Assembly: GCA_031272545.1 (NCBI GenBank)
Contig: JAISTP010000007.1
Location: forward strand, 1-54,920
Direction of reading: 5' to 3'
DNA from: Bacilli bacterium
GTDB lineage: Bacteria; Bacillota_I; Bacilli_A; JAJDGJ01
DNA length: 54,920 nt
The notes beneath the pieces are model-generated. The model was not told the origin of the DNA. It was given only the letters and a program-made list of their open reading frames with translations, and searched no databases. The translations under genes were made by a program, and so were the position numbers. Below, one piece after another: positions 1 to 38,565 of this stretch. The stretch's first letter is position 1. Every line of letters begins with the position of its first letter.

Positions 1-44
1 ATATTATTAATATTTAATAGGGACTATTTACAGTCCTTATTCTT

Positions 45-118
45 GCTGCATTAGTATAATGGTATTACGAGGCCATGGTAAGGCTTTAACGCAGGTTCAA
101 TTCCTGCATGCAGCACCA
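45..118 (+). tRNA. tRNA-Thr (anticodon GGT)
   Basis: The sequence folds by eye into a full cloverleaf. The acceptor stem pairs 45-51 with 108-114, followed by discriminator A115 and an encoded CCA at 116-118. The T stem is 91-95 with 103-107 around the loop TTCAATT. The anticodon stem is 70-74 with 82-86, and the loop ATGGTAA places GGT at 77-79 after the invariant T. G1:C72 and C2:G71 plus a G-G-U anticodon are classic threonine identity elements. The D stem has only three clean pairs. A phage-type integrase and TTGCCA repeats lie just downstream, so this tRNA may be an attachment site, but no duplicated 3' end was found in the window. Confidence 0.85.
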
Positions 119-126
119 GGTAGCTG

Positions 127-155
127 AAAAGTGCCGTAACTACGGTACTTTTTTG
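127..155 (+). terminator. Rho-independent terminator after tRNA-Thr
   Basis: AAGTGCCGTA (129-138) pairs with TACGGTACTT (141-150) with one G:U pair, and a run of T follows. It lies 10 bases after the tRNA CCA and would end the tRNA transcript. Confidence 0.8.
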
Positions 156-170
156 TTTCATATATGTATA

Positions 171-254
171 AATTGCCAATTTGTTGCCAAAAAAATTGCA
201 AAAAATTTTTATATATCTTTTAAATATAAGAAAATCGGGTGTTTTGTGTTGCCA
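171..254. repeat. Three direct TTGCCA motifs, possible integrase arm sites
   Basis: TTGCCA occurs at 173-178, 184-189 and 249-254, the last two as TGTTGCCA. They sit in the 307-base non-coding stretch between the tRNA and the mod gene. Short direct repeats beside an attachment site often serve as arm-type sites for tyrosine integrases, and a tyrosine integrase is encoded at 4151-5224. The assignment as arm sites is inference. Apart from these repeats and the tRNA terminator I see nothing else in 119-307 except AT-rich promoter-like sequence. Confidence 0.3.
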
Positions 255-307
255 CTGAACAGGATATAAAATAATATTTATATGGTATAATTAGTTTAAT
301 TTTATGT

Positions 308-1915
308 TTGAATAAAGGAGATAAGTGTCAATATGAACAACAAACAAACAAACAAACAAACAAACAAACAACTATTAGAAATGATGCAAGAGTACAATTA
401 ATTGAAGAAATAAAGTATAGAGTCGAAAAAAATATTATTGAGAAGACTAATGCTGATTTATTAATAAAATTAATAACTAATGCTGATGATTTTAATGAAG
501 CAATGCAAATTGCTAATTTAGGAACAATGTATCGTAACACTGGCCTTTTTTTTAATTTTAAATTAGAAAAAATGGGCGATGCCATTAAATATTTTAAAAA
601 GAATGATGAACTATCATTTAAAACTTCTGATAATAACTTAACTCATAAATTGATTATGGGTGATAATTATGATGCATTATTAAATTTATTAGTTCAATAT
701 AAAAATAAAGTTGATGTTATTTATATTGATCCACCTTATGGGAAAGATAGTATGGGAGAATTTGCTAAAACAAATTATGATAATTCTCTAACTAGAGATA
801 ATTTATTGTCTATGTTAAGACCTAGATTATTTTTAGCTAAACAATTGTTTTCAGATGAAGGAGTAATATTTTGTAGTATAGATGATAGAAATCAAGCCTA
901 TGTAAAATGTTTATTTGATGATGTTTTTGGAGAAAGTAATTTTATAGGAAATTGTATAAGAAAAACAGCAACTAACAGAGCAATGGCAAAAGATTTTAAT
1001 TTATTGCATGAATATCTATTAATATATCGAAAAAACGAATATGGTAAATTAATTGGAGAAAAAAAAGATATTAGTGATTACCAAAATCCTGATAATGATA
1101 GAAATGGATCTTGGACTTCTGGGGATCCAAGTATGAAGGGTTCAAAAAATAAATTTGGAATCGTAAATCCATACACAAAAAAAGAAGATTTTCCACCTAA
1201 AGGGCGAGGTTGGGCTTTTAATAAAAATAAATTAAAGGAATATATTGATAATGGAACAATAATTTTTAAAAAGTCATATAATGATAATGAAAGAGGATTT
1301 ATAAAAAAACAATATTTAAAGGATATAAAAAGTAATAATATGATTGTGAATTCATTAACTTTTATAGATAATAAATTCTTAAATCAAGTAGCTACAAAAA
1401 ATGATAATTTGTTTGATGATGATTTATTTGATAATCCAAAACCTGTTTCCTTTATTTCAAAACTACTAAGTTTCATTGACAAAAACAATGCTATCATTCT
1501 TGATTTTTTTGCTGGATCTGGTACAACAGGTCAAGCAGTATTAGAATTAAATAAAGAAGACAATGGAAATAGACAGTTTATTCTTGTAACATCTAATGAA
1601 ATTACTGATAAAACTCCAAATGGAATAGTTAAAGATGTAACTTCTAAACGTTTAAAAAGAGTCATGACTGGTGAATGTTATGATGGTAGCAATGATTTTA
1701 AATGGTTAGAAAAAAATGAACCATTAGGTGGTAATCTAGATGTCTATGAAATAGATAGTGTATTTAATAGTGAAGGAACTAAAAATAAAACACCTTTTGA
1801 TGTTATAGATGAAACTCTTTATGGATGTGAGACTTTTAATGATAAAAAAGATAAAATTGAATGGGTTTGTGAGAATTTTGAAATAACCCAAAAATATATT
1901 GATAAAAAAAATTAA
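308..1915 (+). CDS. mod: Type III restriction-modification methyltransferase (Mod), probably phase-variable
   Basis: This is the N6-adenine methyltransferase and specificity subunit of a type III system. In the order typical of this class, the DPPY catalytic motif comes first (about residues 141-144) and the SAM-binding FAGSGTT motif later (about 401-407). The stretch between them should hold the target-recognition domain. The only long reading frame opens at TTG 308, which has no ribosome-binding site. The good AAAGGAG (314-320) instead faces ATG 333. That ATG runs through a CAAA repeat tract in another frame and meets TAA at 399-401. As assembled, with 7 CAAA units, translation from ATG 333 is therefore off; one unit more or two fewer would join it to Mod. 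Res follows 18 bases downstream. The family call is secure; the actual start is not. Confidence 0.9.
   Translation: MNKGDKCQYEQQTNKQTNKQTTIRNDARVQLIEEIKYRVEKNIIEKTNADLLIKLITNADDFNEAMQIANLGTMYRNTGLFFNFKLEKMGDAIKYFKKNDELSFKTSDNNLTHKLIMGDNYDALLNLLVQYKNKVDVIYIDPPYGKDSMGEFAKTNYDNSLTRDNLLSMLRPRLFLAKQLFSDEGVIFCSIDDRNQAYVKCLFDDVFGESNFIGNCIRKTATNRAMAKDFNLLHEYLLIYRKNEYGKLIGEKKDISDYQNPDNDRNGSWTSGDPSMKGSKNKFGIVNPYTKKEDFPPKGRGWAFNKNKLKEYIDNGTIIFKKSYNDNERGFIKKQYLKDIKSNNMIVNSLTFIDNKFLNQVATKNDNLFDDDLFDNPKPVSFISKLLSFIDKNNAIILDFFAGSGTTGQAVLELNKEDNGNRQFILVTSNEITDKTPNGIVKDVTSKRLKRVMTGECYDGSNDFKWLEKNEPLGGNLDVYEIDSVFNSEGTKNKTPFDVIDETLYGCETFNDKKDKIEWVCENFEITQKYIDKKN
339..371 (+). repeat. Tetranucleotide (CAAA)7 tract in the 5' end of mod
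   Basis: Seven perfect CAAA units occupy 341-368, flanked by partial units (339-371 in all). A four-base unit changes the reading frame whenever one is gained or lost by slipped-strand mispairing. The tract lies just after ATG 333 and its upstream Shine-Dalgarno, the standard position in phase-variable type III mod genes. The encoded peptide in the Mod frame is a repeating T-N-K-Q. Confidence 0.92.
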
Positions 1916-1933
1916 TTGTAGAGGAGTGAAATT

Positions 1934-4018
1934 ATGCTACAAGATGCTATAGATTTACAAAATGAAGCAGTAAAAAAATTAATTGAATTAAGTAAGTCAG
2001 ATAAAAAAGAGATTACATTTAAAGCACCTACTGGTAGTGGGAAAACTTATATGATGGCTAATTTTATGAACCAAGTTTTATCAGAAAATGATGAAGTTAT
2101 TTTCCTTGTTACTTGTTTGTCTAAAGGTGGTTTAGCAAAACAAAATTATGATAAATTCACAGAATATTCAAATGATGGTGATTTTACAAAAATAGATCCT
2201 TTTCTTATTTCTAGTGAATTTGCTAATGAGGAAACACCACATATAGATGATAATCATAATGTTTATATCTTACCAAAAGACTTATTTAAAAAGAAAAGTA
2301 TTTTATTTAGAGGAATATTTGAAGCTTTTTTATCTAATATAACTAAAGATAATATTTTTGGTGCTAAAGGTAAGAGAATATTTCTAATAAAGGATGAATG
2401 CCATATATCAATTAAAAGAATAGATAATTTGATAGATAAATATTTTGATAGATGTTTTAATTTTTCTGCAACTCCAAAATTATCAAAAAGACAAGTTCCA
2501 GATGTTGAAATTACTAATGAACAAGCAGAACAAGTTAAACTAATTAAACATGTTGAAATAGGTGATGAAAATGCATCTGTTGATGATGTTGTTAATAAAT
2601 TTGAAGAAATTAAAAGTCAATATCGTAATTTATTAAATATTAATCCATGCTTAATAATTCAAATATCAAACAAAAATAAATCAGATGATGAATTAGAAGA
2701 AATTAAAAGAGTTTTAAACAAAAGTGAACATGTTGATTTGAAATGGATGTATATTGTTGAAAAAGAAAAAGAATGTGATACTAACGATCAAGTCAAATTT
2801 AAAAATTCAAAAGTTGAAAAGTGGAAAGATTTAGCAAAAAACAATTCCTCTACAATTGATATTATTATTTTTAAGTTGGCTATAAGTGAAGGTTGGGATA
2901 TTCCTAGAGCATGTATGTTATATCAAATGAGACAAAGTAGAAGTAAACAGTTAGATGAGCAAGTAATGGGAAGAGTTAGAAGAAATCCTAGATTAAAAGA
3001 TTTTGAAGATTTAACATCTGAAGCTCAAAACCTTGCTATGACATCATGGATTTGGGGAGTTGTCCCAGAATCACTCCATAAGAGTTATTATGTTGAATTG
3101 AAAAATTTAGATAATAAAATAACTAATGAATTTAAAGTTAAAACCACAAGACTAAAAAATTTAGGGGAAGAAGAAAACTTTGATTTTGTTGCTTTTTTAA
3201 AAACTTGTAACCAAAGAGTAGTTAATAAAAATATCTTTGAATCATATAGAAAATTAAAAACATCAAGCAATGATGTAAGAAAAATATTTAATAATTTTGT
3301 TGATTCATATGATAAATATTTTGAATATACAAATAATTTAGATGAAATATCTAAACAAAGTAAAAATTTTAAATGTGAATATGATAAATGTATGGAAATA
3401 GTAAAAGATAATTACAATTATGATATTGAATTTTCATTACCTATTGAGTCCTATTTTTTAGATAATGAACACTATATTGATATTGAAAAATGGGTATGGA
3501 AAAGAAAAGATAATTCTAATAAGTTTTCATTTGATAGCGAAGCTGAAAAAGAATGGGCAATGAAATTACTAGATTTAATTAGTGATGATGTTAATAACAA
3601 TAAAAGAATTGGAAAATTTGTAGAAGATGAAAATAAAGAAAAAATTTATTTATTAGCAAAAAATTATATGCCTAATTCTGATATTAAATTTGAATATTAT
3701 CTTGGTGGTAGTAATTCTAATTTTTCATATCCTGATTTTGTAATGAAAGATTGTTATAATCGTATTCATATTTTTGAAGTTAAAAGTATTAATTTTTCAA
3801 ATCAATTAAACAACAGTATTGATTCAGATTTATATGAAAATAAAGTTAATGAATTTAAAAAGATGTATAAGTATTCTTCATTTTTAACTAAACAAATATT
3901 TTATTTGCCTATAAAAAAAGAAGATAACTGGCATATTTTTAAGTATGAGAATGGTATAGAAGAAGTAATAAATTATAGTCAATTTAAAGATTTTGTTAAA
4001 AACAAAAACAATATTTGA
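1934..4018 (+). CDS. res: Type III restriction enzyme, Res subunit (ATPase and nuclease)
   Basis: Res acts with Mod to translocate or slide on DNA and cut unmethylated sites. The N-terminal superfamily 2 helicase core has a Walker A motif APTGSGKT (31-38) and a DECH box. A later motif with RQSRSK and QVMGRVRR fits the arginine-finger region. The C-terminal nuclease motif is visible as P600-D601 with E615-V-K617, the PD-(D/E)XK pattern. At 694 residues it is shorter than many Res proteins but contains both expected parts. The start follows GAGGAG at good spacing and is 18 bases after mod, so the two are an operon. If Mod is switched off, Res is expected to be inactive, since type III nucleases need Mod for specificity. 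Confidence 0.92.
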   Translation: MLQDAIDLQNEAVKKLIELSKSDKKEITFKAPTGSGKTYMMANFMNQVLSENDEVIFLVTCLSKGGLAKQNYDKFTEYSNDGDFTKIDPFLISSEFANEETPHIDDNHNVYILPKDLFKKKSILFRGIFEAFLSNITKDNIFGAKGKRIFLIKDECHISIKRIDNLIDKYFDRCFNFSATPKLSKRQVPDVEITNEQAEQVKLIKHVEIGDENASVDDVVNKFEEIKSQYRNLLNINPCLIIQISNKNKSDDELEEIKRVLNKSEHVDLKWMYIVEKEKECDTNDQVKFKNSKVEKWKDLAKNNSSTIDIIIFKLAISEGWDIPRACMLYQMRQSRSKQLDEQVMGRVRRNPRLKDFEDLTSEAQNLAMTSWIWGVVPESLHKSYYVELKNLDNKITNEFKVKTTRLKNLGEEENFDFVAFLKTCNQRVVNKNIFESYRKLKTSSNDVRKIFNNFVDSYDKYFEYTNNLDEISKQSKNFKCEYDKCMEIVKDNYNYDIEFSLPIESYFLDNEHYIDIEKWVWKRKDNSNKFSFDSEAEKEWAMKLLDLISDDVNNNKRIGKFVEDENKEKIYLLAKNYMPNSDIKFEYYLGGSNSNFSYPDFVMKDCYNRIHIFEVKSINFSNQLNNSIDSDLYENKVNEFKKMYKYSSFLTKQIFYLPIKKEDNWHIFKYENGIEEVINYSQFKDFVKNKNNI

Positions 4019-4077
4019 AATGGTTAGTTTTGAACTTTATCACAGCATATTAAATTAAGATAATTAAGTATATAAAA

Positions 4078-4106
4078 AGCTCATGATTTTAATTGTCATG
4101 AGTTTT
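4078..4106. terminator. Bidirectional terminator between res and the integrase
   Basis: CTCATGA (4080-4086) pairs with TCATGAG (4096-4102), flanked by A-runs and T-runs on both sides. It lies between the convergent ends of res and the integrase gene and can serve both. Confidence 0.75.
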
Positions 4107-4150
4107 CTTACACACTAAGTGCTATTTAAGTGTTTATTATACACTATTTT

Positions 4151-5224
4151 TTATTCTAATTCATTTATTATATCTATAATTGTATCTTCTTTTTCTTGAT
4201 ATAAATGAGAATAAGTATTTAAAGTCATTCTTATATCATTATGTCCTAGTCTTTTAGCAACTAATACAGGACTAGCACCATTATTAATCAACAAACTTGC
4301 ATGACTGTGTCTTAGATCATGTATTCTAATTCGTTTAACACCAGCTTCTTTGCAATATTTTTCAAATTTATTTGTAATTGTAGTTTCTGACAAAGGATTG
4401 TCAACTGAAAAAACAAAGAATGTATTACTAAAATTAGGATAATTTTCTTTTTGCAAAGTCTTTAATTCTTTCAAAGATTCGATGGTGTTTTTATCCATTG
4501 AAACTGTTCTATTACTTGAAGCATTTTTTGGTTCGTCTATAAAATATCTTAAACCTTTAACTTTTTGTGTGACAGATTTATTAATGCTTATTTTTCTATT
4601 TCTAAAATCAATATCTTGCCAATTTAATGTTAGTGCTTCTCCTTTTCTTAGCCCACAATAATATAAAACTTTAAAGAATGCATTATAAACTATATCATCC
4701 ACTTTACTAATAAATTTTTTAAATTCTTCTAAGGTAAAAAAATCTATATTACTAGTTTTTACTCTTAATTTTTTAATATTTATAAAAGGATCTGCAGTTA
4801 ATCCATAAATAGGCTTAGCATAATTATAAGTTTCTTTTAATAAAGCAATGCAATTATTAATTCTACTATTAGATAGTCCTTTATCTAATAGTTCATTTCT
4901 AAATTTTATTACAAGTCTATTATTTAATTTATCAACTTCAAAATCATTTAATGCTGGTCTTAAATGATTTTCAATAACACTTTTATTTCTCCTTAATGTA
5001 GAATTTCTAACTACATTTTTTTTATTTTCAAGAAACTCATCAAATAAATCACCAAAAAGGGGAGCATCTATAAATACTTCAATATCACTATGCTTAACTT
5101 CATAATCTTGAGCATCTCTTTTTGTTTTAAATCCAAATTTTCTTTTTCTTTCCTTTGTTCCATCAACCTTTTCTATAGTATAATCAGCAACCCAACACTT
5201 ACTTCTTGAACTTTTATAAGCCAT
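4151..5224 (-). CDS. int: Phage/ICE-type tyrosine recombinase (integrase)
   Basis: This enzyme carries out site-specific integration and excision of a mobile element. Counting from the chosen start, the catalytic residues visible are Arg193 (in LRKGEAL), His302-x-x-Arg305 (in HDLRH), His328 (in LGHND) and the nucleophile Tyr338 (in NTYSHL). The first 50 or so residues, rich in basic residues with a W and K-R-K-F-G-F-K-T-K-R, look like the AP2-type arm-binding domain. A reading frame extends three codons further to 5233, but the Shine-Dalgarno AAAGGATG abuts that ATG and is correctly spaced only for ATG 5224. A 23-base inverted repeat lies just upstream. All catalytic residues are present, so the enzyme could be active even though the element looks eroded. 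Confidence 0.93.
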   Translation of the reverse strand: MAYKSSRSKCWVADYTIEKVDGTKERKRKFGFKTKRDAQDYEVKHSDIEVFIDAPLFGDLFDEFLENKKNVVRNSTLRRNKSVIENHLRPALNDFEVDKLNNRLVIKFRNELLDKGLSNSRINNCIALLKETYNYAKPIYGLTADPFINIKKLRVKTSNIDFFTLEEFKKFISKVDDIVYNAFFKVLYYCGLRKGEALTLNWQDIDFRNRKISINKSVTQKVKGLRYFIDEPKNASSNRTVSMDKNTIESLKELKTLQKENYPNFSNTFFVFSVDNPLSETTITNKFEKYCKEAGVKRIRIHDLRHSHASLLINNGASPVLVAKRLGHNDIRMTLNTYSHLYQEKEDTIIDIINELE

Positions 5225-5242
5225 TTCTATCATCCTTTTTTC

Positions 5243-5265
5243 TCACTGGACACGGTGTCTAGTGA
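5243..5265. promoter_or_regulatory. 23-bp inverted repeat upstream of the integrase gene
   Basis: TCACTGGACAC (5243-5253) and GTGTCTAGTGA (5255-5265) are inverted around one central base, with one mismatched pair. It lies 18 bases before the integrase start on the transcribed side. It could be an operator, an excisionase or integrase site, or an mRNA hairpin. It does not resemble the TTGTACTT motif found near the repressor genes. Function is inference. Confidence 0.5.
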
Positions 5266-5297
5266 TATTTACTAATTGTATATTTTATAATACTATA

Positions 5298-5921
5298 TTA
5301 TTTGCTAATGATAACTTTAACTAATTTACCAATAACTCTAAAATCATCATCTTCAGTAACAATTATTGGATCATATTTTGAATTAGAACTTTTTAAAACG
5401 ATAGTATCATTTATTTTTGTAAATTTCTTTACATAATTCTCTCCATTGTAATAAAAACAACCTATTGTATCTAATTCTATTTCAGATTGAGCTTTAAATA
5501 ACAATAGTGAGTTATTGACTATATTATCATCAATCATGCTATCTCCACTTGCATATGATAAAAAATAATCATCACCATTGCCAATTATCCATGATTTAGG
5601 TATAGCAAATAATTCTTCTTTAAATTGGTCATTATTATATCCTTCACCACAAGATCCAAAACCTAAAAGTTTTATAGGAATATAAGCTGTTTCTTCTTCA
5701 TTAGCTATAATGCTTTTATTTATTTCTATCTCATAACCAAGTAGATAATCAACTGTAACATTAAAAAAATTAGCTATTTCTATTAATGTTTGAAAATCTG
5801 GTTTTCTTTCTTCTATCTCATATTTTGAATACCTACTTTGTGAATATCCCAGTTTTTCAGCTATTTGATATTGTGATAGATTTAATTTGCCTCTTAATTC
5901 TTTCATTCTTTGACCGTACAT
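5298..5921 (-). CDS. CI/LexA-type repressor with HTH_XRE and S24 autopeptidase domain
   Basis: This is a probable element repressor. Residues about 1-60 form an XRE helix-turn-helix (LSQYQIAEKL, SQSRYSKYE). The C-terminal half is a peptidase S24 domain. A Cys-Gly pair in GSCGEG fits the self-cleavage site, GDSM carries the serine nucleophile, and YVKKF the general-base lysine. Such repressors are inactivated by RecA-stimulated autocleavage after DNA damage. The gene is second in a two-gene minus-strand operon, 37 bases after its paralogue. Its ribosome-binding site is poor, which suggests low expression or translational coupling. Confidence 0.9.
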   Translation of the reverse strand: MYGQRMKELRGKLNLSQYQIAEKLGYSQSRYSKYEIEERKPDFQTLIEIANFFNVTVDYLLGYEIEINKSIIANEEETAYIPIKLLGFGSCGEGYNNDQFKEELFAIPKSWIIGNGDDYFLSYASGDSMIDDNIVNNSLLLFKAQSEIELDTIGCFYYNGENYVKKFTKINDTIVLKSSNSKYDPIIVTEDDDFRVIGKLVKVIISK

Positions 5922-5958
5922 AAATAATTACCCCATTCATAATAATATTTTCTACTTT

Positions 5959-6570
5959 TCATTCTTCATAGCTAATAATAATTTTTAGCAATTTGCCAAT
6001 TATAGTAAAATCATCATTTTTAGTAATGATTATTGGATCATATGATGAATTAGCACTCTCCAAAATTATTGAGTTATTAATTTTTGAAAATCTTTTAATA
6101 ATAATTTTGTTATTTAATTTAAAAATACCAATTGCTTTTTGATTAAGTTCTGATTGTTTAATAAATAATAATAATGAATTTTCTACAATATTTTCATCAA
6201 TCATACTATTGTCTATTGATTTTGTTATAAAATAATCACTTATATTATTTACAATCCATTTTTTTGGTATAGCAAAATTATTATTTTGATTTTCTACTAA
6301 AACATTTTTATCAATTTTTAAAAAAGGAATATAGACAATATCTTTTTCTTTAGAAATTTTAATTTTATTAATGTCTATTTCATATCCTAATAAGTAATCA
6401 ACTGTAACATTAAAATATTTTGCAATTTTTAATAAGATATCATATTCTGGTTGTCTTTTTTCTCTTTCATAATTTGAATATCTATGTTGAGAAATACCTA
6501 ACTCATTAGCTAAAGTTTTTTGATTTATTTTTTTTGATTCTCTTAGTTTTTTCATCCTACTTCCAAACAT
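5959..6570 (-). CDS. Second CI/LexA-type repressor paralogue lacking a visible cleavage site
   Basis: It has the same architecture as the neighbouring repressor: an XRE helix-turn-helix at about 1-60 and an S24-like C-terminal domain. The serine (DNSMID) and lysine (IIIKRF) are kept. The linker where the paralogue has Cys-Gly (FLKIDKNVL onward) contains no Ala-Gly or Cys-Gly pair. It may therefore be a non-cleavable, dominant or anti-induction repressor. It has a good GAAGGTG Shine-Dalgarno and is first in the operon. Its promoter region overlaps the TTGTACTT operators at 6610-6710. Lack of cleavage is inferred from sequence. Confidence 0.88.
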   Translation of the reverse strand: MFGSRMKKLRESKKINQKTLANELGISQHRYSNYEREKRQPEYDILLKIAKYFNVTVDYLLGYEIDINKIKISKEKDIVYIPFLKIDKNVLVENQNNNFAIPKKWIVNNISDYFITKSIDNSMIDENIVENSLLLFIKQSELNQKAIGIFKLNNKIIIKRFSKINNSIILESANSSYDPIIITKNDDFTIIGKLLKIIISYEE

Positions 6571-6609
6571 TTCTACACCTTCTCTATAAAAATATTGTTA
6601 ATTTATTCC

Positions 6610-6631
6610 ATTTTGTACTTAAATACAAAAT
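6610..6631. promoter_or_regulatory. Inverted-repeat operator in the repressor/cro-like intergenic region
   Basis: ATTTTGTA (6610-6617) and TACAAAAT (6624-6631) are perfectly inverted around a 6-base centre. It overlaps the probable minus-strand promoter of the repressor operon. The half-site TTGTACTT recurs at 6703-6710, and a related TGTATTTACA palindrome lies at 6654-6663. Three sites between divergent repressor and Cro-like genes resemble a lambdoid operator layout. Confidence 0.65.
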
Positions 6632-6653
6632 AAATCAATATTTTTAATCAGAA

Positions 6654-6710
6654 TGTATTTACAACTATAAAATTTATAGTATAATTACTATTATTAAACA
6701 AATTGTACTT
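6654..6710 (+). promoter_or_regulatory. Plus-strand promoter and flanking operators for the Cro-like gene
   Basis: TTTACA (6658-6663) and TATAAT (6680-6685) are separated by 16 bases, a good sigma-A promoter. The -35 is embedded in the palindrome TGTATTTACA (6654-6663), and TTGTACTT (6703-6710) lies between the promoter and the Shine-Dalgarno AAAAGAGGTG. Repressor binding at either site would block this promoter. Confidence 0.6.
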
Positions 6711-6725
6711 AAAAGAGGTGTAGAA

Positions 6726-6811
6726 ATGTTAAGAAAATTTAGAAAAAGATTAAATTTATCTCAAACTGAACTTGCTGAATTGTTAGATTTAAATCAAAAC
6801 ACAGTAAATAA
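6726..6811 (+). pseudogene. Truncated Cro-like XRE regulator (5' fragment only)
   Basis: The first 28 or so codons encode the start of an XRE helix-turn-helix (RKFRKRLNLSQTELAELLDLNQNTV). After that the frame runs into unrelated sequence and stops at 6911. The gene has a promoter, operators and a Shine-Dalgarno, and is divergent from the two repressors, the usual place for a cro-type gene. Homology ends at about 6808-6812, exactly where a cupin sequence in a different frame begins. A deletion that removed the rest of the element's early region is the simplest explanation. Confidence 0.7.
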
Positions 6812-7057
6812 GAAGTACCATTTGCTCATTATCATAAGAATAATGAAGAAATATATACTATTATTTTTGGCAAGGGAAAAATTATCATTGATAATGAAGA
6901 AATTATCCTAAAAGGTGGAGATTGGTTTAAAGTAAAACCAGCTGCTAAACGACAAATATTTGCTTCTGATGAATCAACTATTACTTATGTATGTATTCAA
7001 GTTAAAGAAAATTCTTTAGATACCTATACTAATAGTGATGCTATTATTGTAGAATAG
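6812..7057 (+). pseudogene. Headless cupin-domain protein remnant
   Basis: In the frame opened by GAA 6812 the sequence reads EVPFAHYHKNNEEIY and continues as a cupin barrel with IIFGKGKIIID, KGGDWF and PAAKRQIF, ending at TAG 7057 after 81 codons. HYHKNNEE carries the usual metal-ligand pattern H-x-H with E. The frame has TAA immediately upstream (6809-6811) and no start codon, so the N-terminal part is missing. It is fused out of frame to the Cro-like fragment. It is probably a chromosomal gene cut by insertion or deletion of the element; I infer it is non-functional. Confidence 0.75.
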
Positions 7058-7074
7058 GTAGTAATTTTATAATA

Positions 7075-7108
7075 AAAACGATGTAACTATATTTAGTTAT
7101 ATCGTTTT
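7075..7108. terminator. Bidirectional terminator after the cupin remnant
   Basis: A 15-base stem pairs 7075-7089 with 7094-7108 (one G:U), with A-runs and T-runs on the two sides. It serves the plus-strand cupin remnant and the convergent permease gene. Confidence 0.8.
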
Positions 7109-36480: not shown

Positions 36481-38565
36481 ATGAAGAAGAGTTTTTCATT
36501 ATTATTTGTTTTATTTTTTTTATTTATTATTTCTCAAACAAGCAATGTTTTTGCGACTACTAATGGCATGGTTATGCTATCGCCTAGTAATAAAACTTGT
36601 AATATATATACTAAATATACTAAAGGAGAAGTTATCACATATATTAATCCAGCTTTCGGTCGTGATGCCGCATATTTAGATAAAAAGGGAAGCCGTTATA
36701 AAATTATGATTAGTGGTGTTACTGGATGGATTGATAAAAGTTGTGTTTCATATACTATTTCTTATAATAATATGGATAATTATCCTTATAAAACTGGTGG
36801 AGTTGAACTTAATGGAAAAGATGTTTCTCGTTATCAAGTAGTTAATAATAAAATGTATTTTGTATCGACTTATGTAGGTGAGTATGCTTATACGACAGGA
36901 ACTAGTGGCTATACTGATGTCCCTACTGGCTTAAAAAACAAAACGATTTATTATTCTTATGATGGTATTTATTTTTATACTAATTACAATACAATGATTA
37001 ATGATTATAAAGCCAATACTCGTATTCATTCCGCAAATTATAAATATCCATATTATGATTATTATATTTATCTTCCTTTAAGAACTACTTCTAGTATTAG
37101 TGCTACAACTTTTGATAAATTTTTGTTAAGTAAAAATAGTAAATATGATGATAATTTTACACAAACAATGTCTTTTTTACGTACTATTGATCCAAAAACT
37201 TATACTCATACTTATAAAGGTAAATATTCAGCTATATATGGTAAAGCTAGTAGTTTTAAAACTTCTACCTCTAAATATCAATTAAATAGTGGCTTATTAT
37301 ATGGAATTATGCTTAATGAATCAGGAAATGGTACTTCAAATTTCTCTCGCCATTATAATAATCCTTTTGGTTGGGGTGCCGTAGATTCTGAACCTAATAA
37401 TGCGACTATTTGGAGTTCAATGACTTCAGCTTTTGATAAATATAGTGCTACGATGGCCACAAGTTATGCTAGTGTCTACTATCAAGGTGGTAATGGTACT
37501 AATTTAGGTAATAAACAATCAGGAGCTAGTACTAAATATGCTTCAGATCCTTATTGGGGTTATAAAAATGCTTATAATTATCGTTTATTAGATGAAAAAA
37601 GTGGTAAAGTTGATAAAAACAAATATACGATAGGTATATTAGGTACTAATAAAAGAGCTGTTGATGATACTTTAAGTAATGAATATGTTTATGTTTATCA
37701 AAGCGCTAGTGTTACTTCAAAAAAGATTGCTTATTATGAAAGAAATAATGCTAGTGTAATTATTCAAGGTGTTAGTGGATCTTTTTATAAAATTCAAAAT
37801 GATACTGGCACAAACAAAGGTAGTGCTTATGTTTTAAAAAGTAATGTTAAAGCTATTATTGGTAAGAAATTAACTACTTCTTCTTCTAATACAACTAATA
37901 CAAGCACTATTAAAACTGCAACTACTACTGTTAAAGATAGTAGTGGTAATGTAGTAGAAGAAAAAATTTGGAATACTAAAAATACTACTTCTACAAGTGA
38001 TGATGTTTTATTATATAGTTATAAATTCTATTATAATGCTAATAAAACTATAAAATATGCGACTAAGGTAGAAAATAGTTTAGTAGTAAGAGAGTATTAT
38101 TATCAAACTGGAACTACTTATGGAAGTCATGGTAGTAAAATAATTTATTATTATAATTTTACTTATAATAGTAATAAGACAATTAAAGAAGCGACTAAGA
38201 TAGAAAATAATTTAGTAGTAAGAGAGTATTATTATAAGAGTGGAACTACATATGCAAATCATGGTAGTAAAATAGTATTCTATTATAGTTTTATTTATAA
38301 TAGTAATAAAACAATTAAGTATGCAACTAAAGTTGAGAATAATTTAGTATTAAGTGAATTTCATTATCAAAGTGGAACTACTTATGCAAATCATGGCTCT
38401 AAATTAGTCTATCGTTATGATTTCTTCTATAATAGTGATAAAACAATTAAATATGCCCAAAAATATGAATATAGTAAAAAGAAAGTTACTATGAAATATT
38501 ATTATCAAACTGGTACAAAATATGGTAATCAAGGTTCTAAAATAATTAAAACCATTAAATGTTAG
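36481..38565 (+). CDS. Secreted glucosaminidase with SH3-like domains and four 44-residue repeats
   Basis: A signal peptide (KKSFSLLFVLFFLFIISQTSNVFA) is followed by an SH3-like segment at about 40-90. A glucosaminidase (GH73-like) domain is centred on LNESGNGTSNFSRHYNNPFGW, with the probable catalytic Glu280. A second SH3-like segment lies near 400-450 and a Ser/Thr linker at about 460-490. Four tandem repeats of about 44 residues (NKTIKYATKVEN..., REYYYQTGTTYGSHGSK) end the protein. It probably cleaves peptidoglycan glycan strands during growth or separation, and the repeats may bind the wall. ATG 36481 behind AGAGGTG is chosen over an upstream GTG. Confidence 0.85.
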   Translation: MKKSFSLLFVLFFLFIISQTSNVFATTNGMVMLSPSNKTCNIYTKYTKGEVITYINPAFGRDAAYLDKKGSRYKIMISGVTGWIDKSCVSYTISYNNMDNYPYKTGGVELNGKDVSRYQVVNNKMYFVSTYVGEYAYTTGTSGYTDVPTGLKNKTIYYSYDGIYFYTNYNTMINDYKANTRIHSANYKYPYYDYYIYLPLRTTSSISATTFDKFLLSKNSKYDDNFTQTMSFLRTIDPKTYTHTYKGKYSAIYGKASSFKTSTSKYQLNSGLLYGIMLNESGNGTSNFSRHYNNPFGWGAVDSEPNNATIWSSMTSAFDKYSATMATSYASVYYQGGNGTNLGNKQSGASTKYASDPYWGYKNAYNYRLLDEKSGKVDKNKYTIGILGTNKRAVDDTLSNEYVYVYQSASVTSKKIAYYERNNASVIIQGVSGSFYKIQNDTGTNKGSAYVLKSNVKAIIGKKLTTSSSNTTNTSTIKTATTTVKDSSGNVVEEKIWNTKNTTSTSDDVLLYSYKFYYNANKTIKYATKVENSLVVREYYYQTGTTYGSHGSKIIYYYNFTYNSNKTIKEATKIENNLVVREYYYKSGTTYANHGSKIVFYYSFIYNSNKTIKYATKVENNLVLSEFHYQSGTTYANHGSKLVYRYDFFYNSDKTIKYAQKYEYSKKKVTMKYYYQTGTKYGNQGSKIIKTIKC
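38008..38555 (+). repeat. Four tandem 132-bp coding repeats
   Basis: The period is exactly 132 bases: the GCGACTAAG / GCAACTAAA landmarks lie at 38059, 38191 and 38323. Copies 2 and 3 are very similar to copy 1 even at silent positions, while copy 4 is more divergent and two codons longer. Such arrays expand and contract by recombination, so copy number may vary between strains. Confidence 0.9.

Follow-up and report, generated by a model that had tools for sequence, protein, structure and literature searches.

The 54,920-base window analysed here, which is a whole contig of a 1.32-Mb draft genome (60 contigs, 97.9% complete), very probably carries a phase-variable type III restriction-modification locus. 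A tract of CAAA units near the start of its mod gene would, through slipped-strand mispairing, switch the Mod methyltransferase ON and OFF, and the assembly would represent the OFF form. The tract, the reading frames on either side of it, the intact mod and res genes and the non-random nature of the repeat are established directly. A preliminary description of this DNA had proposed a phase-variable mod gene in the OFF state, and this proposal is partly supported overall – the gene is a type III mod accompanied by a res, the repeat far exceeds chance and lies at the usual site of the tracts of phase-variable mods, and at 7 units the start codon that follows a Shine-Dalgarno sequence does not share the frame of Mod.

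The mod and res genes

The two genes of the system are adjacent:

372 to 1915, forward strand: body of mod, a type III (beta-order) adenine methyltransferase, from Pfam, PADLOC, PDB and motifs
1934 to 4018, forward strand: res, a type III restriction subunit with its own Shine-Dalgarno sequence (GAGGAG), from Pfam, PADLOC and motifs

The Mod protein matches the profiles N6_N4_Mtase of Pfam (6.8e-31) and MTase_III of PADLOC (5.4e-74). Its matches among PDB structures include 6k0w (2e-81), the target-recognition region of which resembles the window's Mod, as well as Mbo45V (7dsu) and the EcoP15I Mod (4zcf, 1.1e-34). The DPPY motif (728–739, residue 141) precedes the FxGxG motif, here FAGSG (1508–1522, residue 401), as in Mods of the beta class. 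Res matches ResIII (5.7e-18) and REase_III (4.9e-29) and has the helicase motifs and PD-ExK nuclease of a type III system: Walker A (2024–2047), DECH (2393–2404), SATP (2465–2476) and PD...EVK (3731–3784).

Further stops or frameshifts are absent from the more than 500 codons of mod and the 694 codons of res. Because the motifs of both proteins are intact, the pair does not appear to be decaying. A fixed frameshift, in which a single change of tract length broke the gene and left a decaying pseudogene, would account for an assembled allele out of frame with ATG 333, but it is very unlikely given that both genes are otherwise unbroken and their catalytic motifs preserved, although stops arise readily at 25% GC. 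With both frames intact at such a base composition, a permanent OFF state would be unlikely, and the integrity of Mod and Res despite an out-of-frame Shine-Dalgarno-led start points to regular selection of the ON form.

The CAAA tract

The repeat is a single uninterrupted run:

339 to 371, forward strand: perfect period-4 tract of 33 bp, with seven CAAA units at 341 to 368

Tandem Repeats Finder reported the same interval (339–371) with a period of 4, 8.2 copies and 100% matches. The tract encodes a repeating KQTN peptide and is free of stops in all frames. Five consecutive CAAA units occurred in none of 100 dinucleotide shuffles of the window. In the genome, of which nearly the whole 1.32 Mb was read (25.4% GC), the 33-bp run stands alone as an outlier, the runner-up period-4 runs being 16 bp long; the longest such runs in eight genomes simulated with a 4th-order Markov model were 15–19 bp. 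The CAAA tract is the lone contingency-type locus of the genome, since no other tract approaches its length. It lies inside the mod reading frame, exceeds chance, and has a unit length that is not a multiple of three.

Among 395 genomes of the class, CAAA tracts of at least six units were found elsewhere in just two genomes, in neither case in a mod gene. In another class genome, a 53-bp CAAA tract of about 13 units (L142 1501–1553; G179:C3, minus strand) follows a Shine-Dalgarno-led ATG and lies between two phage-tail-like genes; the gene downstream has its own Shine-Dalgarno sequence, and a stop in its frame separates it from the tract. Within the window, a 132-bp repeat at 38019–38456 (3.3 copies, 81% matches) has the appearance of part of a repetitive protein.

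The assembly is a draft in 60 contigs, and the count of seven could be an assembly or sequencing artefact hiding a sequence uniformly in frame with ATG 333. Ordinary short reads span a 33-bp tract, however, and the tract and its capacity to slip remain whatever the count; this explanation is extremely improbable. The genome encodes a MutS-type mismatch-repair frame of 841 amino acids. Mismatch repair handles 4-nt loops poorly, so this frame is no argument against slippage. Seven tetranucleotide units do make a short tract, and switching may therefore be slow.

Start codons and reading frames

The following signals lie upstream of or across the tract:

283 to 291, forward strand: candidate extended -10 element, TGGTATAAT, from direct reading
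308 to 310, forward strand: TTG, at 7 units the sole Mod-frame start before the tract, without a Shine-Dalgarno sequence
314 to 320, forward strand: Shine-Dalgarno sequence AAAGGAG, 12 nt upstream of ATG 333
333 to 401, forward strand: reading frame of ATG 333, 22 codons, closed at 7 units by TAA 399–401

Direct reading confirmed the positions that the preliminary description had given for the Shine-Dalgarno sequence, ATG 333–335, the seven CAAA units, the TAA and the TTG. In copies of the locus made in silico with 4–12 CAAA units, the frame of ATG 333 ran uninterrupted through Mod at 5, 8 and 11 units, the first two of which had been predicted earlier along with the loss of frame at 7. That of TTG 308 did so at 4, 7 and 10 units, and neither frame did at 6, 9 and 12. 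Read from ATG 333, the assembled 7-unit copy is OFF; read from TTG 308, it is formally open. Because the tract is stop-free in every frame and lies at the first codons of mod, the number of units alone decides the frame.

The earlier claims that ATG 333 is the only start with a Shine-Dalgarno sequence and that the Mod frame opens upstream only at TTG 308, which has none, were borne out by reading and frame checks. One refinement concerns the spacer, for which 12 nt is long in this organism – such a spacing was seen at 2 of the 128 AAGGAG-class sites of the genome, with a mode of 7–8 nt. GTG 325, only 4 nt past the Shine-Dalgarno sequence, was considered as a start and rejected, as its frame stops after three codons. 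This mini-ORF (GTG-TCA-ATA-TGA, 325–336) overlaps ATG 333 as ATGA, and translational coupling between the two is therefore conceivable.

The relatives of this mod have a Shine-Dalgarno-led ATG about a dozen codons upstream of the conserved block (preceded by AAAAGGAG in L002 and by AGGAGG in L001), and ATG 333 is at the equivalent position. Since it is also the sole Shine-Dalgarno-led start, ATG 333 is the likelier of the two starts. The candidate -10 element TGGTATAAT would be expected to place the mRNA start near 298, about 10 nt before TTG 308; a consensus promoter scan picked TTGCCA/TAATAT at 249–277 instead.

Translation of Mod could also be constitutive from TTG 308, with the gene simply ON and the KQTN stretch tolerated as a linker. 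At 7 units this codon is in frame through all of mod, and TTG is the start of 19 of the 331 Shine-Dalgarno-led long ORFs in the genome. However, TTG 308 itself has no Shine-Dalgarno sequence and would have a leader of only about 10 nt if the mRNA starts near 298, the AAAGGAG would sit idle within the coding region, and the arrangement in the relatives fits ATG 333 better. Constitutive expression of this kind is unlikely. Equally doubtful is a three-level switch, in which the Shine-Dalgarno-led ATG 333 would give full Mod at 5, 8 or 11 units, a near-leaderless TTG 308 would give a trickle at 4, 7 or 10, and Mod would be absent at 6, 9 or 12; carried beside an integrase, it would be the only SSR contingency locus in an uncultured Bacilli lineage with a small genome.

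The proposed switch

For the favoured reading, an ON/OFF switch of Mod, we infer slippage, the use of ATG 333 and the ON/OFF methylation from the sequence. Slipped-strand mispairing at the CAAA tract would alter the number of units, and translation would begin at ATG 333 by way of the Shine-Dalgarno sequence at 314–320. At 5, 8 or 11 units, translation from this start would cross the tract and yield the complete methyltransferase (ON); any other number would bring a stop after about 13–26 codons (OFF). Type III Res requires Mod in order to cleave, so the OFF state would abolish methylation and restriction together, without self-harm. Several points count against such a switch: the locus is represented by one allele, the 12-nt spacer is rare in the genome, TTG 308 is open at 7 units, and the tract is short.

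Possible mobile-element context

The surroundings of mod and res hold the following features:

45 to 118, forward strand: tRNA-Thr(GGT), identified with ARAGORN, near the contig's left end, a possible integration site
126 to 153: terminator-like stem downstream of the tRNA-Thr gene
4151 to 5233, reverse strand: tyrosine integrase, beside mod-res
5298 to 5921 and 5959 to 6570, reverse strand: two S24/XRE CI-like repressors

The tRNA gene, mod-res, the integrase and both repressors are grouped within 1–7100. In a genome of the same genus (L136), the region upstream of hom lacks counterparts of them, which suggests that the cluster is an integrated element. The switch does not need this mobile context. 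The motif TTGCCA is repeated at 173, 184 and 249, and these copies may serve as arm sites for the integrase. A second att site was sought in the genome as a repeat of the 3' end of the tRNA-Thr gene; none of at least 17 bp was found. Relatives of the integrase in viral_contigs are only 27% identical. At 6726–7058, an XRE helix-turn-helix start continues out of frame into a cupin-like tail, and this is likely a broken HTH-cupin regulator gene.

Related Mods in the class

The window's order is represented by four genomes in the comparison set. A mod gene was sought in the window's genus and family and was absent from both. A second allele of the locus was sought in viral_contigs using flank patterns from both sides of the tract, and none was found. 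Many genomes of the class read through TGA in Mod/Res-type genes, a trait that points to the GTDB class Bacilli, to which the mycoplasmas belong.

The closest relatives (about 42–54% identity) have no repeat. The nearest Mods (L001, L004, L005, L006 and L007) form one clade of six with that of the window, with a support of 100/100. The closest in sequence, at L001, L138/L004 and L139/L006, have the same mod-res order, with Mod 47–50% and Res 50–53% identical to those of the window, but lack an SSR.

The mycoplasma-type Mods of the class are on the opposite side of the Mod tree from this clade. AG tracts were found at 19 mycoplasma-type loci, mostly a short way ahead of DPPY, between the segments that match query residues 129 and 136. 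In the 17 tracts with enough flank to be counted, Mod is in frame in 6 and split in 11 (L015, L017, L019–L021, L153, L155, L158, L159, L165 and L167); several of the split Mods belong to arrays with two or more mod genes. The mycoplasma set shows frame states, set by the tracts, that differ between genomes. Because the otherwise tract-free clade of the window and the AG-tract Mods are on opposite sides of the tree, the comparison suggests that repeat tracts arose independently at least twice in the type III mods of the class – CAAA here and AG in the mycoplasmas.

Comparison with known phase-variable mods

Repeat-bearing type III mods are already well known, among others in Streptococcus suis and Mycoplasma, and the window holds a further example. 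As here, the type III genes modA of Haemophilus and modM of Moraxella have a tetranucleotide tract close to their 5' ends; these have another unit and a distant Mod, and they are proven phasevarions.

The preliminary description had held such switches to be much less known in low-GC gut bacteria. This needs qualifying, as low-GC Gram-positive cases exist in the mycoplasmas (AG tracts, PMC3498834) and in S. suis modS (GAGCA tracts, PMC6265453), and SSRs occur in 17.4% of REBASE type III mods, some of them from commensal or environmental organisms (PMC7394358). The mycoplasma mods resemble that of the window in being type III genes of the same class and wider Mod family, with a coding SSR that sets the frame; in M. 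mycoides MmyCI, 12 AG units are inactive and 10 active (PMC3498834). Their repeat is a dinucleotide, mostly just before DPPY, whereas that of the window is a tetranucleotide at the first codons. Like the window's gene, modS belongs to a low-GC Gram-positive bacterium and is a type III mod with its SSR at the 5' end, but the unit is a pentanucleotide. Variation in tract length and the methylome have been demonstrated for ModS, whereas the window's locus is known from one allele; six pentamer units were deemed highly stable for modS (PMC6265453).

This locus would extend the set of bacteria in which methylation probably switches at random to an uncultured, small-genome lineage of 25% GC in the class of the mycoplasmas. 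Since the genome has no other long repeat, the CAAA tract would provide an easy, single read-out of switching in natural populations.
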